39,154 bases of DNA. It comes from Thermoplasmata archaeon (GTDB lineage Archaea; Thermoplasmatota; Thermoplasmata; Thermoplasmatales; Thermoplasmataceae). This document shows, in pieces, positions 9,417-33,775 of this stretch; positions within the stretch are counted from its first letter, which is position 1, and each line of letters begins with the position of its first letter. Made by a program: the position numbers and the translations under genes. The stretch covers positions 1 to 39,154 of the forward strand of contig JAJZXU010000008.1 in assembly GCA_021806235.1 (NCBI GenBank), in the 5' to 3' direction. The notes under the pieces are model-generated. The model was given only the letters and a program-made list of their open reading frames with translations, had not been told where the DNA came from and did no database searches.

Positions 9417-10382
9417 ATGGAATACGATATTGTTGTTATTGGAGGAGCAGCAGCGGGCCTTACAGCTGCTTTATACTCTGCAAGGCAGGGAATGAAAACT
9501 TTAGTTATTACCAAGGATATCGGTGGCCAGGCGCTGCTAACAAACGAAATACAGAACTATCCCGGCTATGATCTTGTTGATGGCTTTAGCCTGTTAAATA
9601 AATTCAAGGAGGAAGCCGAAGCATTTGGATCAGAATTTTTATACGATGAAGTAACATCCATAAAAAAGGAAAATGATAAATTTATCCTGAAAACAAACGA
9701 TAAGGAAATAATCTCTAGGGCAGTTATTCTTGCATTCGGCAAAACACCAAGAGATTTAAATGTTCCTGGGGAAACCAGCTTTAAGGGTCACGGTGTATCA
9801 TACTGTGCAATATGTGATGGCCCATTATTCAGGAACAGGGATGTTGCAGTTTATGGCAATGGTGAGCATGCAATACAGGCTGTTATATACCTCTCATCGG
9901 TTGTAAAAAAGGTTTATTTTATAACAAGGGCAAAAAAGATTATCGGTGATGATGAACTGGTCAGTACACTGAATAGCCTTAAAAACGTTGAGATATTTAA
10001 GGACTCATCACTGCTTAGCATATCCGGTGATGCATCTGTTAAAAGTATAAAAATTAAGGGCAATTCATCTGGCATAGAAAGTGACATTAATACAGGTGCC
10101 GTATTTGCAGAAATGGGGTATATAGCCAGAACGGATTTTGTAAAGGGCATTGTAAAACTAAATGAATCAAATGAAATCATTGTAGACACTTACTGCAAAA
10201 CTTCTGAGGAAGGCATTTTTGCATGTGGTGATGTCACGAATACACCATATAAACAGGTAGTAATATCTGCAGGCCATGGTGCAACAGCAGCATTATCCGC
10301 GTATAACTATGTTCAGAATAAAAAAGGGAAGGTTGCATCAAAAAGTGACTGGAAACTTGTGAATACAGTTAAGGCAAAATAA
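9417..10382 (+). CDS. trxB: Thioredoxin reductase (low-molecular-weight type), atypical NAD(P)H motif
   Basis: A 321-residue flavoprotein. FAD binding is by GGAAAGLTAALYSARQG at 9-25, and the redox-active pair is C130-A-I-C133 in YCAICDG. The C-terminal FAD motif GIFACGDVTN is intact. The pyridine-nucleotide domain is unusual: the Rossmann loop reads YGNGEHAIQAVIYL instead of the usual GGGDSAxE type, and the NADPH-selecting HRRxxxRA motif is replaced by ITRAKKIIGDDE. The Thermoplasma acidophilum enzyme is known to lack NADPH use, and this one appears to share that trait. It forms an operon with trxA (2-nt gap) and reduces it. Confidence 0.93.
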   Translation: MEYDIVVIGGAAAGLTAALYSARQGMKTLVITKDIGGQALLTNEIQNYPGYDLVDGFSLLNKFKEEAEAFGSEFLYDEVTSIKKENDKFILKTNDKEIISRAVILAFGKTPRDLNVPGETSFKGHGVSYCAICDGPLFRNRDVAVYGNGEHAIQAVIYLSSVVKKVYFITRAKKIIGDDELVSTLNSLKNVEIFKDSSLLSISGDASVKSIKIKGNSSGIESDINTGAVFAEMGYIARTDFVKGIVKLNESNEIIVDTYCKTSEEGIFACGDVTNTPYKQVVISAGHGATAALSAYNYVQNKKGKVASKSDWKLVNTVKAK

Positions 10383-10498: not shown

Positions 10499-11221
10499 AT
10501 GATTACATATGACCAGTGCAACGCCATCATGGAGAAATATAATGAAAACATAAGTTACGGCTTCTATGTAAATTTCGATGCTGAATTTGTAATAAACCCG
10601 GATAAAAAAATGATATCTGCCAGTATAATAAAATTATATATACTGTATTATATACTCAAAATGAATTTTAATATCAAAAAAATACATAGTTCTGAAATTA
10701 TTAAAACGGAGGATTCTCTTCTAAATTTTATGGATGCAGATATAAACATGGATTTTTTAATTTCTATGATGATCGATGAAAGTGATAATGCTGCATCTAA
10801 TTTCTTTATCGATAAAATTGGCATTTTTAAATTAAACTCCTTTATAAAAAATAATGGTTTTAAAAACACGGTTCTGGAAAGGAAATTCCTGGATTATGAG
10901 GCAATTAAAAACGGTAAAAACAACTATACATCTGTAAATGACATTAAAAAGTTATTCTATGATGTTTTGCATTCAGATTATGAAAAAGATTTTATGAAAT
11001 TCCTCTATATGCAGAAGGATAAATCTAAATCCGCATTTTACCTTAATAATATAAGAACTGCAGGTAAAACCGGTGAACTATACAATGCACTGAATGATGT
11101 AATCCTTTATGCAAAGGGCGATAAGAATGTATTAAGCATTGTATTTATCAACAATGTTCCGGATATAATTGCCAGGGATTTCATTACATCCATGTCCTAT
11201 TATCTTTATAATAAGTTATAA
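10499..11221 (+). CDS. Class A beta-lactamase-fold serine hydrolase
   Basis: A 240-residue protein carrying the full set of penicillin-recognising motifs: SxxK as S42-I-I-K45 (ISASIIKLYIL), SDN as S95-D96-N97 (MIDESDNAASNFF), and KTG as K190-T191-G192 (RTAGKTGELYNA). The omega-loop region ERKFLDYEA (about 127-135) lies where class A enzymes carry Glu166. No signal peptide is visible, so it is predicted to be cytosolic, unlike bacterial relatives. It is about 25 residues shorter than the class A norm. A TATA at 10470-10480 gives a leaderless start. It converges with the S13 peptidase (6-nt overlap of 3' ends). Substrate unknown; D-amino-acid peptides or esters are plausible. Confidence 0.85.
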   Translation: MITYDQCNAIMEKYNENISYGFYVNFDAEFVINPDKKMISASIIKLYILYYILKMNFNIKKIHSSEIIKTEDSLLNFMDADINMDFLISMMIDESDNAASNFFIDKIGIFKLNSFIKNNGFKNTVLERKFLDYEAIKNGKNNYTSVNDIKKLFYDVLHSDYEKDFMKFLYMQKDKSKSAFYLNNIRTAGKTGELYNALNDVILYAKGDKNVLSIVFINNVPDIIARDFITSMSYYLYNKL

Positions 11222-12232
11222 TTTATCTATCCTGTATTTTAATAATTTATCTATTTTTAATTCCCCCTCATTTTCACTTAAATTAGAATTGTTTATGGAT
11301 ATGCTAAAACTTATATTTTTATCCTCAATTATTCCTGAAAGCAGTGAGCAGTGGTCAAGTGTGCCTGTTTTTGCCCTTATGGTATAATTCTTAATATCTG
11401 TAAATCGATTTTTGAGTGTACCATTTCCCGTTCTAGAATCAGGAAGTAACTGCAAAAATCCATCATCCTGCCTATAAATTTTGTTGACAAACTCTGATAA
11501 AAATAGGGTATTAATCAGATTTAACCTTGATAATCCCGATCCATCTGCTATGTATAAATCATTTTTGCCATAAAATTTTTCAATAAAATTTTTAATTATT
11601 TTTGAACTTTCACTGGATATGCCTGTGCCGTTTTTTACATATGATAGATATTTAAACATCACCTCAGCAGAAAAATTGTAGCTCATAACCTCCATATGCT
11701 TTAATATTTTTTTTATATCCATCCCATAAATAATATTATCATTTATGCTATTATTACTGTTATTTACATTATATATAAGAAAATCCGAGAATAGTTTCCT
11801 GTGGGCATTATAGGGGAACATGTTGCTGTCATGGGGATTGTGGAATTCATGTGATTCAGGCATATAATTATCGTATATGCACCCCTCATTAACTGTATAG
11901 GGTTCTATTTTCTGTGAATAGCAGAATTTAACATCATCCATTGACCATCCCCTGCCATAATAGTTATTATCAAAGATCTTCTCGAATTCTACACTATTTA
12001 TTTTCTGTTTTCCCCTTAAATTTTCTGATATTTTATATAAATCCTCAAGGGTTAATAATGGTGTTGGGTCACCACTTACGTGTATTTTATCATCATTTAT
12101 ATTAAAAATTGTTCTGAGAGTGTAATCCCTGCCGGGTATGGAATATAATGCATAACCCGTTAGCAATTTCATATTTGAAGCTGGCAGTATATTTGAATTT
12201 TCATCGACAAAACAGTATAATAGTGTTTACAT
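11216..12232 (-). CDS. Peptidase S13 (DacB/PBP4-like D-Ala-D-Ala carboxypeptidase), start codon followed by a stop
   Basis: The motifs are all there: PASNMKLLTG (SxxK), GDPTPLL, SYNFSAE (SxN), DGSGLSRLN, GTLKNRF and RAKTGTL (KTG), in the S13 order. The first ATG that leaves a long frame is at 12172 (318 aa), but it is the Met inside SxxK, so that product would lack the catalytic serine. The frame continues upstream as TLLYCFVDENSNILPAS back to 12226, where it is preceded by TAA (12229-12227) directly after an ATG (12232-12230). So either codon 2 mutated to stop, an unusual start is used, or the gene is decaying. E. coli DacB is longer because of its signal peptide and insertion domain; this one looks cytosolic. 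It converges with the beta-lactamase-like gene. Confidence 0.8.
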
Positions 12233-12316
12233 TAAAATTCTTTGTATTCTTTCTTTAACTTAAAACCTAAACAGTTTTTATATTTTATTGATTTTATCAT
12301 AAACTGTAAATAAATA

Positions 12317-13006
12317 TTAATATTCAAATCTTCCTATTTTTTCCATTATATCCAAAAGCCTTTTAGAATATTCACTTTTATCATTCAGATCATTATATGT
12401 TATTCTTGAGTATGTTCCATTTGCATGTAATATTTTATAATTGCCAAGATAAAATGCAACATGCCCGGTGAAAAATATCAAATCTCCCTTTTTTGCATTA
12501 TCAAAGCCATCTACCGTAATTGATTTATCACACTGCTGTTCGGAATTCCTTGGAATCTCATACGATAATGAAAACCGTATCATTCTCTGGGTTAAGCCTG
12601 AACAGTCGAAGCCAAAGTTTGATGTGCCTCCCCATAAGTATGGTGTTCCCACAAACTTCTTTGCCATTTCAACAGGATCATATTTTTTATTTACCGGCCT
12701 TATTATTGATTCCGGTATACTGAAATAATTTATATCATGGCCATCTATATACGATCCTAACGGCAGGATAAAAGTTCTGGTTCTAAACATCCTTATAATT
12801 TTATATTTCCTTTCCCGGTATTCCCCCACAAGTTTCTTTTTGGTATAACCGGTAACACCATCTGGGCATTTTACTTTTATATACTCATCACCATCTTCCA
12901 GTATACTGACCTTCTCGCCATAAATAAGCTGTGAATAACGCTCTGATTCGAATTTTGGCTCTTTCCTTATATCGGCAACACCTGTTATAATCATTCCAGA
13001 ATCCAT
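12317..13006 (-). CDS. NlpC/P60 cysteine peptidase with N-terminal SH3b-like domain
   Basis: A 229-residue protein (from the ATG at 13006). The N-terminal half is an SH3b-like fold (GVADIRKEPKFESERYSQ, GEKVSILED, GYTKKKLVG). The C-terminal NlpC/P60 domain has the nucleophile C135 in FDCSGLTQ, then H182 in GHVAFYLG and H194 in ILHANGTY, with PYLWGG before the cysteine. In bacteria this architecture cleaves gamma-D-Glu-diamino acid bonds in murein peptides. The frame opens at 13039, but the TATA (TTTATATATTC, about 13023-13033) favours 13006. No signal peptide is seen. With its two neighbours it suggests handling of scavenged muropeptides, or another D-residue peptide, inside the cell. Confidence 0.88.
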   Translation of the reverse strand: MDSGMIITGVADIRKEPKFESERYSQLIYGEKVSILEDGDEYIKVKCPDGVTGYTKKKLVGEYRERKYKIIRMFRTRTFILPLGSYIDGHDINYFSIPESIIRPVNKKYDPVEMAKKFVGTPYLWGGTSNFGFDCSGLTQRMIRFSLSYEIPRNSEQQCDKSITVDGFDNAKKGDLIFFTGHVAFYLGNYKILHANGTYSRITYNDLNDKSEYSKRLLDIMEKIGRFEY

Positions 13007-13039: not shown

Positions 13040-13401
13040 CTTTTAATTATTTTAGAATAATTTCTGGCATCTGTACATGACAGTGAGTGCCACATATGAA
13101 TGGAGAGTTTTTTTGAGAATTACAGGTATTGAGAAATCAGCAATCAATGCTGGTATTATTGAATGGTTCAGGTGTGATAATTACAGTATTGAATTAGATC
13201 AATATTTTTTCTGCCAGGTGCTGTATTACCAATTTTTATTTCTACCACATACTTCTGTAATTCATATGGGAACAGAATAGTTTTCTTTCTAATTGCGTAT
13301 GCTCCACGATGTCCTTACACGATTTGACTTATGTATTATATACAAAAATAGCATTAATCTCTATTTAAAAAAATTTTAATATGCACACATATTACATTAT
13401 T
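13040..13401. other. Intergenic region with promoter of the dehydrogenase
   Basis: About 360 nt. A plus-strand open frame (13077-13280, 67 codons) has no recognisable features and is probably chance. TTTTAATATG at about 13374-13383 lies roughly 24 nt before the ATG at 13402 and is the likely TATA. A GC-richer patch (about 13290-13320) may be decayed mobile DNA, but I cannot assign it. Confidence 0.4.
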
Positions 13402-14340
13402 ATGAGAATACTTGTAATTCTTCCGGCATTTTTACCTGTGGAAGATATAAAGAAAACAGTAAACCAGATAATGCCTGGAATAGAAATAAGGACGAATATG
13501 GATTTTGAGAAGGATGATGCTGAAGTTGTTGTGATAACCACATTTACACAGTTTGGGAAAAATGAAATAGATAAGTTTCCAAATTTAAAGTTTTTACAGG
13601 TTTCAAGCACGGGATACAACAATGTTGATGTAAAATATCTGAAAAGCAGGAATATTATACTGTCAAATATTCCCCGGGCAAATAAGGATGCTGTAGCCGA
13701 GCATGTAATTGCGATGGTTCTGGCATTTTTAAAGAATTTAATATTCTTTGATAGGGAAATACGTAACGGCAACTGGCCTGTGCTCACAAATTCAACCGAA
13801 TTAAATGGAAAAATCTTCGGAATTATCGGCATGGGTGCAATAGGAATTAAACTGGTACAGAGATTAATACCCTTTGGCCCGGGAATTATATACTATGATG
13901 TAAAGAGATTGCCGGCTGAGGATGAGGAGTTGTATGGATTAATATACATGGAACTTGATGATGTTATAAAGAGTTCAGATATACTATCAATACACCTGCC
14001 ACTGACAGAGGGTACATTAAACTTGTTTGATGATAAGCACTTCTCCATGATGAAGGATAATGCAATTTTTATAAATACATCCCGTGGAGAAATAATGGAT
14101 GAAAATGCACTGGTTAAGGCAATAAAAACAAAAAACATATTTGCGGGTATTGATGTATACAGTAAGGAGCCACCGGATTTTTCATCGGAACTATTTAAAC
14201 TGGGCAATGTAATATTCTCACCGCATATTGCCGGTGCAACCATTGAAAGCCAGCAGAGATTCCTGCAGGAAACTATAGGCAATTTAATAAAATACACACA
14301 GGGTTTAGATCCATTATACCAGATAAAAGAGGAATTGTAG
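13402..14340 (+). CDS. D-isomer-specific 2-hydroxyacid dehydrogenase
   Basis: A 312-residue NAD(P)-dependent enzyme interconverting a D-2-hydroxyacid and a 2-oxoacid. The Rossmann motif GIIGMGAIGIKLV is central. Catalytic Arg is in NTSRGEIMDE, Glu in IDVYSKEPPD, and His in SPHIAGAT. The frame opens at 13381 (MHTYYIIMRIL), but the ATG at 13402 starts the conserved beta strand (MRILVILPAF) and has a TATA-like element 24 nt before it. The stop TAG at 14338-14340 is 4 nt before the IscB-type element. Without that element the next gene (ThDP decarboxylase) would start almost immediately, so the two were probably one operon: oxidation of a hydroxyacid, then decarboxylation of the oxoacid. Glyoxylate/hydroxypyruvate or phosphoglycerate activity is an alternative. 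Confidence 0.9.
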   Translation: MRILVILPAFLPVEDIKKTVNQIMPGIEIRTNMDFEKDDAEVVVITTFTQFGKNEIDKFPNLKFLQVSSTGYNNVDVKYLKSRNIILSNIPRANKDAVAEHVIAMVLAFLKNLIFFDREIRNGNWPVLTNSTELNGKIFGIIGMGAIGIKLVQRLIPFGPGIIYYDVKRLPAEDEELYGLIYMELDDVIKSSDILSIHLPLTEGTLNLFDDKHFSMMKDNAIFINTSRGEIMDENALVKAIKTKNIFAGIDVYSKEPPDFSSELFKLGNVIFSPHIAGATIESQQRFLQETIGNLIKYTQGLDPLYQIKEEL

Positions 14341-23080: not shown

Positions 23081-24097
23081 TTACAGGGGTGGTTCAAAGC
23101 CCTCATTAATTTTATCATCCTTATCAATTACATATTTAGAAAATTTTGTTATATAGCATCCCTTATCCAGGGTTAATATTTCAGGCATTATTGCATTATG
23201 GCCATTTAATTTTATTTCATTTAAAACCTTTCCCCTAAAAACCGTATCTATTGAGCTTAAAAATTTAATTTCCCTGTTTACTTCCAGTTTTTTATTGAAA
23301 TATAAATATGCAAGATGTGCAGAACTTCCAGTTCCGGAAGGGGACCTGTCAAGGATTAGCCTGTCCCTGGAGCCGAAGAATAATATTCCATACATTGAAT
23401 CCCTATCAATTATTGATTGAAATCTAACACCATATAAACCATTAATATTGCTATTTAATGGATGCACTATATTTTTGCTATACAGTTTTTCCATTACCTG
23501 CAATGCAATTTTATGTAATTCTGGCAGTATGCCCCTTGAATATTTCAAATTTAAATCATCCAGATCAATAATTGCATAGAAATCACCACCAAAAGCAACT
23601 GTTACTTCAATATTTTTTCCATTCAATGGTATGCTGTAAACAGAATAAATAAATGATGGGACGTTTTTAAGGGATGCATTTTTTACAGTGCCGTTTAGTG
23701 AATTTACGTTTACCACAACTCTTCCGGCCGGTGCATCTATTTTAACCTCTGTAATGCCATTATCACTGGAATTTACAAGTTTTTTCTGGACCAGATAACT
23801 GCCTAAAAACAGTGTTGCATGGCCACACATATCATGCCATCCAGATATATCAAAATATATTGCGGATACATCACCGTCATCAGATGATTTTGATGTTACT
23901 ATTACACCGTAGGAATCTGAAGCTGATCTGGGTTCGTAAGTTAAAAGCTTTCGTATATAATCAAGGTTTTTTATGCAATAATATTTTTTATCGTTTATAT
24001 TCTTTCCGGGGATATCAGGCAAAAAGACTAATTTAACTGGCATTCCAACATTATGTCCCTCAATGGCCTCGACACTTTTAATAAAATTGTTCTCCAT
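23081..24097 (-). CDS. Proline racemase superfamily, Cys/Ser type (trans-3-hydroxy-L-proline dehydratase-like)
   Basis: A 338-residue two-lobed proline racemase fold. The first catalytic residue is C91 in DMCGHATL. The second, normally Cys in SPCGTGTSA, is S254 in DRSPSGTGSSA. In this superfamily Cys/Cys enzymes are racemases or 4-hydroxyproline epimerases, while Cys/Thr or Cys/Ser forms are 3-hydroxyproline dehydratases. Dehydration of trans-3-hydroxy-L-proline is therefore the best prediction, not racemisation. It is divergent from an amidohydrolase (24337). A TATA-like TATTATACATT lies about 20 nt upstream of the ATG. No hydroxyproline transporter is obvious besides the APC permeases. Confidence 0.85.
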   Translation of the reverse strand: MENNFIKSVEAIEGHNVGMPVKLVFLPDIPGKNINDKKYYCIKNLDYIRKLLTYEPRSASDSYGVIVTSKSSDDGDVSAIYFDISGWHDMCGHATLFLGSYLVQKKLVNSSDNGITEVKIDAPAGRVVVNVNSLNGTVKNASLKNVPSFIYSVYSIPLNGKNIEVTVAFGGDFYAIIDLDDLNLKYSRGILPELHKIALQVMEKLYSKNIVHPLNSNINGLYGVRFQSIIDRDSMYGILFFGSRDRLILDRSPSGTGSSAHLAYLYFNKKLEVNREIKFLSSIDTVFRGKVLNEIKLNGHNAIMPEILTLDKGCYITKFSKYVIDKDDKINEGFEPPL

Positions 24098-30027: not shown

Positions 30028-30924
30028 TTATCTGCTGTTAACCCTGTCTTTATTATTTTTCTCAAGTTCCAGCAGAAATTTCTTTTTATCCTCTCCAAGG
30101 GCATACCCACCCATTGCCCCATTTTTCCTGATAACCCTGTGGCACGGTATAATTAATGGCACGGGGTTAGATCCGCAGGCATTGGCTACAGCACGATAGG
30201 CTTTTGGCATTCCTATATCCTCTGCGATATCGCTGTAAGATCTTGTCTGTCCATACGGTATTGTCCTTATTGCTGTCCAGACCCTTAACTGGAATTCAGT
30301 ACCATGGAGAGCCACGGGCATATTGAGATTGTCACCATTAAGATACCCCAGTATTGCATCAACCCTTCCCCTTAAATCGCTGGATTCTATTAAAATAGCG
30401 GATGGATATTCATCATGCAGTGACTTTAATAATATTTCACTGTTATCAGCAACATTAAGGCTGCAGATTCCCATATCGGTTTCTGCCACAAGAAGCATAC
30501 CAATATTTGATGGTGATATCAGGTATTTTATTGTAATGCCCTTACCACCATTACGGTATTCCCTTGTGCCCATCCCGAGTTTTGATGAAGTCGAAGTTGA
30601 AAGCCAGCTCTGTGAATTCTGTCCGGTCATATACACTGCTTTCGGTACCGGCATTCCCATTTTAAGGTTATTTTTTAGAAGAATTATCCGGCATTCCTCC
30701 ACATATTTCTTCGGTGTAATTCCCATAATTTCCTTAAAGGTTTTCTGAATCTGATACCTGCTTATTTTAAACCGGTCTTCAAGTGCATCCAGTGATAGAT
30801 CCGCATCCGGATTTAACCTGATAAAATCACATATGGATGATACAAGTTTCATCTTATTTCCGGGTTTATCATTATTATTGCCATAATGTTTCTTATTAAC
30901 CATGCCTGAATTCTGGTCTTTCAT
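30028..30924 (-). CDS. AraC-type HTH fused to O6-methylguanine-DNA methyltransferase (Ada-like, no zinc domain)
   Basis: A 298-residue repair protein. Residues about 28-125 are an AraC-like double HTH (LSLDALEDRFKISRYQIQKTFKEIMGITPKKYVEECRI). The rest is the MGMT domain: the ISPSNIGMLLVAETDMGICSL N-lobe, then VWTAIRTIPYGQTRSYSDIAEDIG and the alkyl-accepting C261 in IPCHRVI. It repairs O6-alkylguanine by transfer to that cysteine. The N-terminal Ada zinc domain that senses methylphosphotriesters is absent, so activation must differ. The architecture is common in bacteria and unusual in archaea, suggesting transfer. TATA (GATTATAAG) lies about 24 nt before the start. It is divergent from an MFS gene. 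Confidence 0.92.
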   Translation of the reverse strand: MKDQNSGMVNKKHYGNNNDKPGNKMKLVSSICDFIRLNPDADLSLDALEDRFKISRYQIQKTFKEIMGITPKKYVEECRIILLKNNLKMGMPVPKAVYMTGQNSQSWLSTSTSSKLGMGTREYRNGGKGITIKYLISPSNIGMLLVAETDMGICSLNVADNSEILLKSLHDEYPSAILIESSDLRGRVDAILGYLNGDNLNMPVALHGTEFQLRVWTAIRTIPYGQTRSYSDIAEDIGMPKAYRAVANACGSNPVPLIIPCHRVIRKNGAMGGYALGEDKKKFLLELEKNNKDRVNSR

Positions 30925-32444: not shown

Positions 32445-33197
32445 TTATATATCTTCGATTTCTGAAGATACTGTTTCTATAATCTGGGCTATATCCGGAA
32501 TCCTGTCCATAACTATATTCTTTAACTCTGTGCTAAAAGTTTTATGCTGTTTTTCTATTTCATTTAAAAATAAGTTTTTTCGAAATTCAATATTATAATA
32601 TCCTAATTTTTGATTTATCAAACCTGTATTGAATTTAACGTTTTTATATGTTATTAGAAAATATATATCGTAAATATCCCTGGCCTTTTTGCGAGTATAA
32701 ATAGCCCTTACCTTTTCTGCAAGAACCTCCTCTAAATTCATGCCTGATAGTATCCGCACCGGTAAATTATATTCCGGGAAATCGAACTTTAATGGAATTT
32801 TTTCCATAATTACCTTTTCCCTTTTACTTATTTCCACATGAACAGGAGCCCTATCAAGTACTCCTGTATTTAAAGGCCCATTTGAGATTATCCTGAATGA
32901 CAATGTTACATCGTTGTTTCTTATAATTTTAAACTGATTGTTTATGCCAATTAATGAAAGGTTCCGGGAAACGGTTTCAGCTAAATTATTATCCGGTGGA
33001 GAACCTGCTGTAAAATCCAGATCCACGGAAAATCGCCTCAGTCCGTGGAAAAGCCATAAATATGTACCGCCTTTAAATATAATATCCTCATTATACAGCG
33101 AATTGAGTATTAAAACCTGCATATACCTAAGTTCCTCCTGCCATGGACGTATACCATGTAATTTTGATAGCCCAATTATCTCATCCTTGCCTATCAT
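32445..33197 (-). CDS. AbiEii-type nucleotidyltransferase toxin
   Basis: A 250-residue protein of the AbiEii/AbiGii family. It has the nucleotidyltransferase site FKGGTYLWLFHGLRRFSVDLDF, with D59 and D61 as metal ligands and GG at 43-44 as the nucleotide-binding turn. The later LEEVLAEKVRAIYTRKKARDIYDIYFL motif is also typical. Family toxins transfer nucleotides to RNA or tRNA and stop growth, and the pair can act as phage abortive infection. The start overlaps the AbiEi-like gene end by 4 nt, giving coupled translation. It may still act as an addiction module. Confidence 0.9.
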   Translation of the reverse strand: MIGKDEIIGLSKLHGIRPWQEELRYMQVLILNSLYNEDIIFKGGTYLWLFHGLRRFSVDLDFTAGSPPDNNLAETVSRNLSLIGINNQFKIIRNNDVTLSFRIISNGPLNTGVLDRAPVHVEISKREKVIMEKIPLKFDFPEYNLPVRILSGMNLEEVLAEKVRAIYTRKKARDIYDIYFLITYKNVKFNTGLINQKLGYYNIEFRKNLFLNEIEKQHKTFSTELKNIVMDRIPDIAQIIETVSSEIEDI

Positions 33198-33775
33198 GAT
33201 AATGCCCCCATTATGCCGGAAATTTTTTTATCATGTAGCATGCCTAAATCATCGATTAAACCGGAAAAATCTATTTTTTCCTTAAATTCCCTTATATCAT
33301 CCATGGAAAATATTCCATAATACAGACCATCAAATACGGCCTTTTCAGGGTTTGCAACAAAGATATAACTTCCCTTCTCCATATATCTTTTATAACCAAA
33401 GAACAGTTTGGGTTTTATTTTATGGTATACTATTCCCAGGTTATAATAATTCATTGAATTAACTGTTGTAATACACTCCACATATCTTGCAACCTGTTCT
33501 GTCATGTTATGGAATAATAATGCAGAGTTCATAGATATATACGATGGAAAAATCATCTGTGATGCTATAATAAAATTATTATCAATAAATGAAATTCTGC
33601 CGTTGAAAAGTTTAATTGCCAGGCCATTATGAACCATTCTGTTCATATAAACCCTTGATATATTTTTATCCCTGTTAATTAGATTTGAAAATTGCTGCAC
33701 ATTATATACATATATTCCCGAATTCAGGGCCAGATCCCTGATTTTATATAACGACAGCCCTTTTATCATTCCCAT
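33194..33775 (-). CDS. AbiEi-type antitoxin
   Basis: A 193-residue antitoxin candidate immediately upstream of the AbiEii toxin (4-nt overlap). The N-terminal 60 residues form a winged HTH (YVYNVQQFSNLINRDKNISRVYMNRMVHNGLAIKLFNGRISFID). The middle carries the AbiEi MNSALLFHNMTEQ block (about 81-93), and the NPEKAVFDGLYYG segment matches the conserved C-terminal part. AbiEi proteins repress their own promoter by binding inverted repeats, and a matching ATATAAC/GTTATAT repeat lies exactly at this start (33774-33793). The start at 33775 is the first ATG after that repeat. Confidence 0.88.
   Translation of the reverse strand: MGMIKGLSLYKIRDLALNSGIYVYNVQQFSNLINRDKNISRVYMNRMVHNGLAIKLFNGRISFIDNNFIIASQMIFPSYISMNSALLFHNMTEQVARYVECITTVNSMNYYNLGIVYHKIKPKLFFGYKRYMEKGSYIFVANPEKAVFDGLYYGIFSMDDIREFKEKIDFSGLIDDLGMLHDKKISGIMGALS

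Follow-up and report, generated by a model that had tools for sequence, protein, structure and literature searches.

The three adjacent peptidoglycan-type genes in the window, by which we mean the whole 39,154-nucleotide stretch analysed (contig JAJZXU010000008.1 of Thermoplasmata archaeon GCA_021806235.1), are very probably the decayed remnant of a murein-scavenging gene island derived from bacteria. In related Thermoplasmatales, which lack murein, such islands are predicted to encode almost all of the pathway by which bacteria recycle muropeptides. It is these islands, more than the decayed genes in the window, that are of main interest.

The three genes encode members of the families named in the earlier note, Beta-lactamase2 (PF13354, E=1e-25), Peptidase_S13 (PF02113, E=3e-33) and NLPC_P60 (PF00877, E=4e-22), the last with an additional SH3_16/SH3_3 domain, which confirms its description as an SH3b-NlpC/P60 peptidase. 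They do not form a single operon. The class A-like gene (10499 to 11221, 240 aa) is on the forward strand, and the S13 D-Ala-D-Ala carboxypeptidase/endopeptidase gene (11216 to 12172) and the NlpC/P60 gene (12317 to 13039, 240 aa) are on the reverse strand. They are flanked by a thioredoxin reductase gene (trxB, 9417 to 10382, forward strand) and by a 2-hydroxyacid dehydrogenase gene (13381 to 14340, forward strand) that occupies the same position in the closest relative (G002). The longest NlpC/P60 open reading frame begins with 11 odd residues confined to this genus, and the start at position 13006, as first proposed, is the better and probable one. The reported lack of signal peptides was also borne out, as no hydrophobic export signal was found in any of the three proteins or in their archaeal relatives. 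Elsewhere in the window are a gene in which an AraC-type helix-turn-helix is fused to an O6-methylguanine-DNA methyltransferase domain (30028 to 30924, reverse strand), an Ada-like arrangement of bacterial style in an archaeon, an AbiEii-type nucleotidyltransferase gene (32445 to 33775, reverse strand) that likely forms a type IV toxin-antitoxin pair with an adjoining 193-aa open reading frame, and a proline racemase family gene amid amino-acid catabolic genes and permeases (23081 to 24097, reverse strand).

Presence and absence of the genes were scored by genome searches in 61 genomes, comprising 60 related genomes of the order Thermoplasmatales and the source genome itself (1.93 Mb in 37 contigs, 99% complete). 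The NlpC/P60 gene was found in 16 genomes and the S13 gene in 15, with both in 14. The class A-like gene occurred in only three of the 61 genomes, all of a single genus, and we regard it as an accessory gene and not a core part of the island. Strong matches to MurQ were found in 13 of the 61 genomes and NamZ in 12, always within the set that carried NlpC/P60 and S13. Thirteen of the 60 related genomes, two of them single-contig, encoded NlpC/P60, S13 and MurQ together, and 12 of these encoded NamZ as well. Pairwise Fisher tests for co-occurrence of the four genes gave p values of 1e-9 to 7e-12, uncorrected for kinship.

We read 20 loci, in which the same neighbor genes recurred in varying order, and most of the genomes with co-occurrence carried an island of 20-plus genes. 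The island comprised NagZ, NamZ, MurQ, a GlcNAc/MurNAc-type kinase or AnmK, NagA, a NagB-II-like SIS protein, an L-Ala-D/L-Glu epimerase and a diaminopimelate (DAP) decarboxylase. Some islands added DppA, a D-lactate-type oxidase and a peptide ABC transporter, so that the peptide transporters suggested as something to look for nearby are indeed present in relatives. Family scans identified, on the sugar side, MurQ, NagZ-type GH3, NamZ, AnmK, a BadF-type NagK-like kinase, NagA and a GlmS/NagB-II-like SIS protein, and on the peptide side an L-Ala-D/L-Glu epimerase-like enzyme of the enolase superfamily, DAP decarboxylase and an M55 D-aminopeptidase. They also identified a class C-type serine hydrolase, a GlcD/GlcF oxidase, Opp/Dpp permeases and ATPases accompanying a family-5 solute-binding protein, and GNAT and DUF218 proteins. 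AnmK, M55 and GlcD/GlcF were each found in about four loci or fewer, and no gene set was uniform across loci.

Several of these assignments exceeded family cut-offs. MurQ scored 288 bits against NF003915 (cut-off 168), although in every island locus it fell short of the more stringent cut-off of TIGR00274. NagA (TIGR00221) and the decarboxylase LysA (TIGR01048) were above cut-off, both domains of NamZ were matched, and AnmK (PF03702) and M55 scored 266 and 265 bits. The best match of the island epimerase was L-Ala-D/L-Glu epimerase, and the GH3 protein was NagZ-like, slightly under cut-off. In relatives, MurQ, NamZ/NagZ, the epimerase, a gamma-D-Glu-DAP peptidase and NagA are encoded together. 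A clear cytoplasmic MurNAc-L-Ala amidase was not identified in the island. Contamination of metagenomic bins was ruled out as the source of the island because it is present in two single-contig genomes, G017 and G020, of which the former matches CP009479.1 ("Uncultured archaeon clone ASS_A1").

The known biochemistry of these families points to muropeptide recycling, and in an organism without murein such a pathway could serve only for scavenging. Substrates, flux and transporter specificity in the following scheme are predicted from family membership. A Dpp/Opp-type ABC transporter would bring fragments of bacterial peptidoglycan into the cytoplasm. There the sugars would be converted to GlcNAc-6-P and D-lactate by NagZ (acting on GlcNAc), NamZ (acting on MurNAc), MurQ and either AnmK or a kinase of the GlcNAc/MurNAc type, after which NagA and the NagB-II-like enzyme would pass the sugar to glycolysis and the GlcD/GlcF-type oxidase may take the D-lactate. 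The signal-less S13 enzyme would trim or split stem peptides containing D-Ala, the SH3b-NlpC/P60 enzyme would cleave the gamma-D-Glu-diaminopimelate bond, the epimerase would convert L-Ala-D-Glu, DppA or M55, where present, would split D-Ala peptides, and LysA would decarboxylate DAP to lysine. Against this scheme, the kinase, SIS, GlcD/GlcF and ABC transporter families are not specific for muropeptides, and the pathway is almost entirely missing from the source genome. Relative to the recycling loci of bacteria (nag/mur/mpa in E. coli; nagZ-namZ-murQ and ykfABC/dpp in B. subtilis), the archaeal version occurs in hosts that make no murein and combines a signal-less S13, a D-lactate-type oxidase and DAP decarboxylase in the same island, and in the window genome only a remnant of it is left.

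Other genes in and around the islands were also observed. In the island of G005, a 1050-aa protein (L069:13355-16507, reverse strand) carries a signal at its N terminus, domains of the fn3 and PEGA types, and a sequence (YDIDWEP) that resembles the GH18 active-site motif; encoded beside an ABC transporter, it is possibly an exported glycan hydrolase. An exported, C-terminally membrane-anchored protein (EDCAHFVSE ... GHAMLYIG) recurs in islands (L069:6217-7425, forward strand; also L046, L042 and L056). Its Pfam similarity to NlpC/Amidase_6 is sub-threshold and its AlphaFold model was unusable (mean pLDDT 41.8), and we consider it a candidate extracellular murein peptidase. A sugar-transporter gene within the G005 island is split into two open reading frames (L039:7044-8174), and transposase-like open reading frames are present at L069:3225-5276, which together suggest that the island is under reshuffling. 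In acid-mine metagenome-assembled genomes (MAGs) labelled Nitrososphaerota (L083, L085, L086) or archaeon (L092, L090), the NlpC/P60 gene adjoins LysA, in most cases with a Dpp-type transporter, and neither MurQ nor NamZ was found within 10 kb of it. This arrangement is possibly a peptide-only version. Beyond the order, NamZ was also present in a few more distant members of the phylum (G079, G088, G276 and G300; L162, L164-L166).

The island was likely transferred from bacteria. In a quick tree with SH-aLRT support, 23 archaeal NlpC/P60 sequences, including those from the Nitrososphaerota-labelled acid-mine MAGs, formed one clade (SH-aLRT 99) among bacterial YkfC-like enzymes. A Calditrichia MAG (L153, JANQQU010000012.1) encodes MurQ, a BadF kinase, epimerases, S13, LysA and NlpC/P60 side by side in one 20-kb stretch, with part of NamZ at the edge, a gene set like that of the archaeal island. 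The Calditrichia S13 protein has a lipoprotein-like signal, whereas the archaeal S13 proteins have none. The suggestion of acquisition from bacteria is therefore well supported, through the island and the NlpC/P60 clade in relatives and not through the window itself.

The NlpC/P60 protein is most similar in profile and fold to dipeptidyl-peptidase VI and YkfC structures (PDB 3h41, 3npf, 3pvq/4r0k). Like them it combines SH3b and NlpC/P60 domains and retains the equivalents of Tyr226, Trp228, Asp237, Cys238, Ser239, Arg255 and the catalytic His, but one SH3b domain was detected in place of the two in YkfC. Its catalytic residues are Cys146, His193 and His205, and Y134, W136, D145, C146, S147, H193 and H205 are invariant in 14 archaeal sequences, thus including the catalytic Cys/His dyad and the residues corresponding to Tyr226, Trp228, Asp237 and Ser239 that define the YkfC subfamily. 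The subfamily is further defined by Tyr118 and Asp256 (PMC2954226). At the Tyr118 position in the SH3b domain, placed by alignment with 3pvq, the Thermoplasmatales proteins have Val or Leu where nearly all bacterial relatives have Tyr. The Asp256 equivalent is Asn165, which is invariant in the Thermoplasmatales set; almost all bacterial relatives have Asp at this position, as do archaeal L084 and L085. Proteins labelled Nitrososphaerota mostly keep the Tyr, with Asn or Asp at the second gate position. The Thermoplasmatales enzyme thus appears to be YkfC-derived yet falls outside the subfamily as defined, and without either gate residue it is predicted to have an altered substrate choice. Its substrates may include stem peptides that remain joined to MurNAc through their L-Ala.

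The S13 gene in the window is probably broken. The annotated open reading frame starts at the Met within its own SxxK motif (S-N-M-K), and the annotated protein therefore lacks the nucleophile Ser. In the in-frame upstream region, back to the stop codon, there is no ATG, GTG or TTG before this Met; the frame is open without a usual start to 12226, and the decayed 5' end (12173 to 12226, reverse strand) still encodes ...ILPASN ahead of the ATG. G002 has an intact copy (348 aa, MEILSYCFVDENSNVISSKYENLNILPASNMK...), and alignment with this 94%-identical sequence shows that the window is missing 24 nt carrying the start codon and, further into the N-terminal region, another 30 nt. A CTG codon was considered as an alternative start (giving P-A-S-N-M-K), but it is rare and the product would be short of approximately 25 residues at its N terminus; we therefore favor a broken gene. 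Stops were found when reading from the upstream frame, and assembly error is an unlikely cause, as the two deletions relative to G002 are clean and look real. The description of this gene as a DacB-like S13 carboxypeptidase therefore stands for the family and not for an intact gene. As in DacB/PBP4-type enzymes (B. subtilis DacC 1w5d, Actinomadura R39, E. coli PBP4), the SxxK, DGSGxSxxN and KTG blocks are kept in the archaeal relatives, and SxxK, SGxSxxN and KTG were found together in 11 of these and in one bacterium. The archaeal proteins differ in being approximately 320-380 aa rather than approximately 460 and in lacking a signal peptide, they score 86 bits against TIGR00666 (cut-off 108), and the window copy, unlike the DacB/PBP4-type genes, has no start codon ahead of the catalytic Ser.

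The surroundings of the trio also point to a remnant. In G005 the island lies directly beside trxB, which also borders the trio of the window and that of G002; the remaining island genes of G002 are at a second locus (L040, L068). The window keeps only the trio, the trxB neighbor and, between the S13 and NlpC/P60 genes, a 50-bp epimerase relic (12229 to 12278, reverse strand). The relic matches, at 90% identity, the 3' end of the G002 gene for L-Ala-D/L-Glu epimerase (L040), and G005 carries a complete epimerase gene at this place. Searches of the source genome found none of MurQ, NamZ, NagZ and NagA, no close epimerase, and nothing matching the exported hydrolase-like protein of the island. 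Apart from the window NlpC/P60 gene, a DNA search of that genome with the G002 island returned only short relics and part of a large solute-binding protein at 68-70% identity. Two short matches were seen between the loci: at its second island locus, next to the epimerase gene, G002 carries a 55-bp piece of the 2-hydroxyacid dehydrogenase gene (L040:8748-8802, matching window 13843-13897), and window 13219-13247 matches 29 bp within the epimerase gene. These may be traces of recombination between the two loci. In the window organism the island would have been deleted down to the class A-like, S13 and NlpC/P60 genes beside trxB. With the pathway lost and the S13 gene probably broken, a functioning trio in this genome is doubtful. 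Digestion of imported muropeptides, one of the functions first suggested, is well supported through relatives, where NlpC/P60 and S13 lie within a near-complete pathway island, and not from the window.

Whether the window genes are by now dying DNA without present function concerns only their present state and is compatible with an origin in a scavenging island; we put this at close to an even chance, slightly on the unfavorable side. The lost S13 start codon, the reduction of the epimerase to a relic, the disappearance of the other pathway genes, and the substitutions R170C and F94L at conserved positions of the window NlpC/P60 all fit such decay. In contrast, the NlpC/P60 and class A-like reading frames are intact, with dN/dS of approximately 0.09 relative to G002 and no excess of derived changes in the window lineage, indicating either that the losses are too recent to show or that these two genes still serve, the latter being something that a view of the trio as nothing but a relic would not predict. 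Given the S13 and epimerase damage, at most the NlpC/P60 enzyme and the serine hydrolase could still act; both may remain in use, perhaps on peptides from other importers.

A use of the enzymes as weapons, delivered to living bacteria for lysis, is improbable. Secreted archaeal peptidoglycan hydrolases do kill bacteria, hydrolase homologs are prominent in Thermoplasmatota, and signal-less hydrolases might travel in contractile injection systems (PMC12352652). Some islands also carry the exported, anchored protein with its weak NlpC/amidase-like signal. However, none of the three proteins has a signal peptide, which leaves the earlier suggestion of antibacterial defence unsupported, and the downstream sugar and amino-acid catabolism of the island would be useless for killing. 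Woldo and Danwoldo (PMC12352652) are likewise archaeal, of bacterial origin and murein-directed, but these are exported and kill, whereas the trio proteins lack signals and are associated with catabolic genes. Killing and scavenging are nevertheless compatible, as an exported hydrolase could feed the island.

The class A-like protein shares a fold family (PF13354) and the SxxK (SIIK), SDN and KTG motifs with class A beta-lactamases (KSG replaces KTG in G005), and to this extent its original description holds. The deacylating Glu166 is missing: where class A enzymes have RxE, this protein has RKFLDYE, with Phe aligned at the Glu166 position (RKF versus RYE). It is therefore not a normal beta-lactamase, and it scores 28 bits against the class A profile (cut-off 200). 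Class A-like serine hydrolase is a better name. Hydrolysis of beta-lactams for resistance is very unlikely on the same evidence, and the protein has no signal peptide and its host, without murein, offers no beta-lactam target. Equally far-fetched is action on an endogenous murein-like or other D-amino-acid polymer, as also proposed earlier: D-Ala-type and gamma-D-Glu-type peptidases are present in the archaeon and some dedicated function seems conserved, but the trio genes are patchy (missing from seven of nine same-genus relatives, including three single-contig genomes), the co-occurring MurQ, NamZ and AnmK are specific for MurNAc catabolism, and the loci that we read showed neither Mur ligases nor transpeptidases.

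Returning to scavenging, a fuller version appears plausible to us, if a little less than evenly balanced: Thermoplasmatales would have acquired, by horizontal transfer, a complete pathway for importing and eating murein. Its YkfC-derived peptidase would have been rebuilt at the free-amine gate (Tyr118/Asp256) to cleave stem peptides not yet released from MurNAc, its S13 enzyme would have moved from the bacterial envelope to the cytoplasm, and the window would record the stepwise loss of this diet. Our literature search, confined to open-access papers, turned up no publication on MurQ, NamZ or muropeptide catabolism in archaea. A 2025 study of archaeal peptidoglycan hydrolases that kill bacteria left open whether competition or feeding (scavenging) is the driver (PMC12352652). 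An island that would turn muropeptides into a glycolytic sugar phosphate, lysine and glutamate would be direct genetic evidence for feeding, and with it the question of feeding versus competition becomes testable in defined strains. Murein scavenging would also mean that, in acid mine drainage, bacteria and archaea are connected by a further flow of nutrients.
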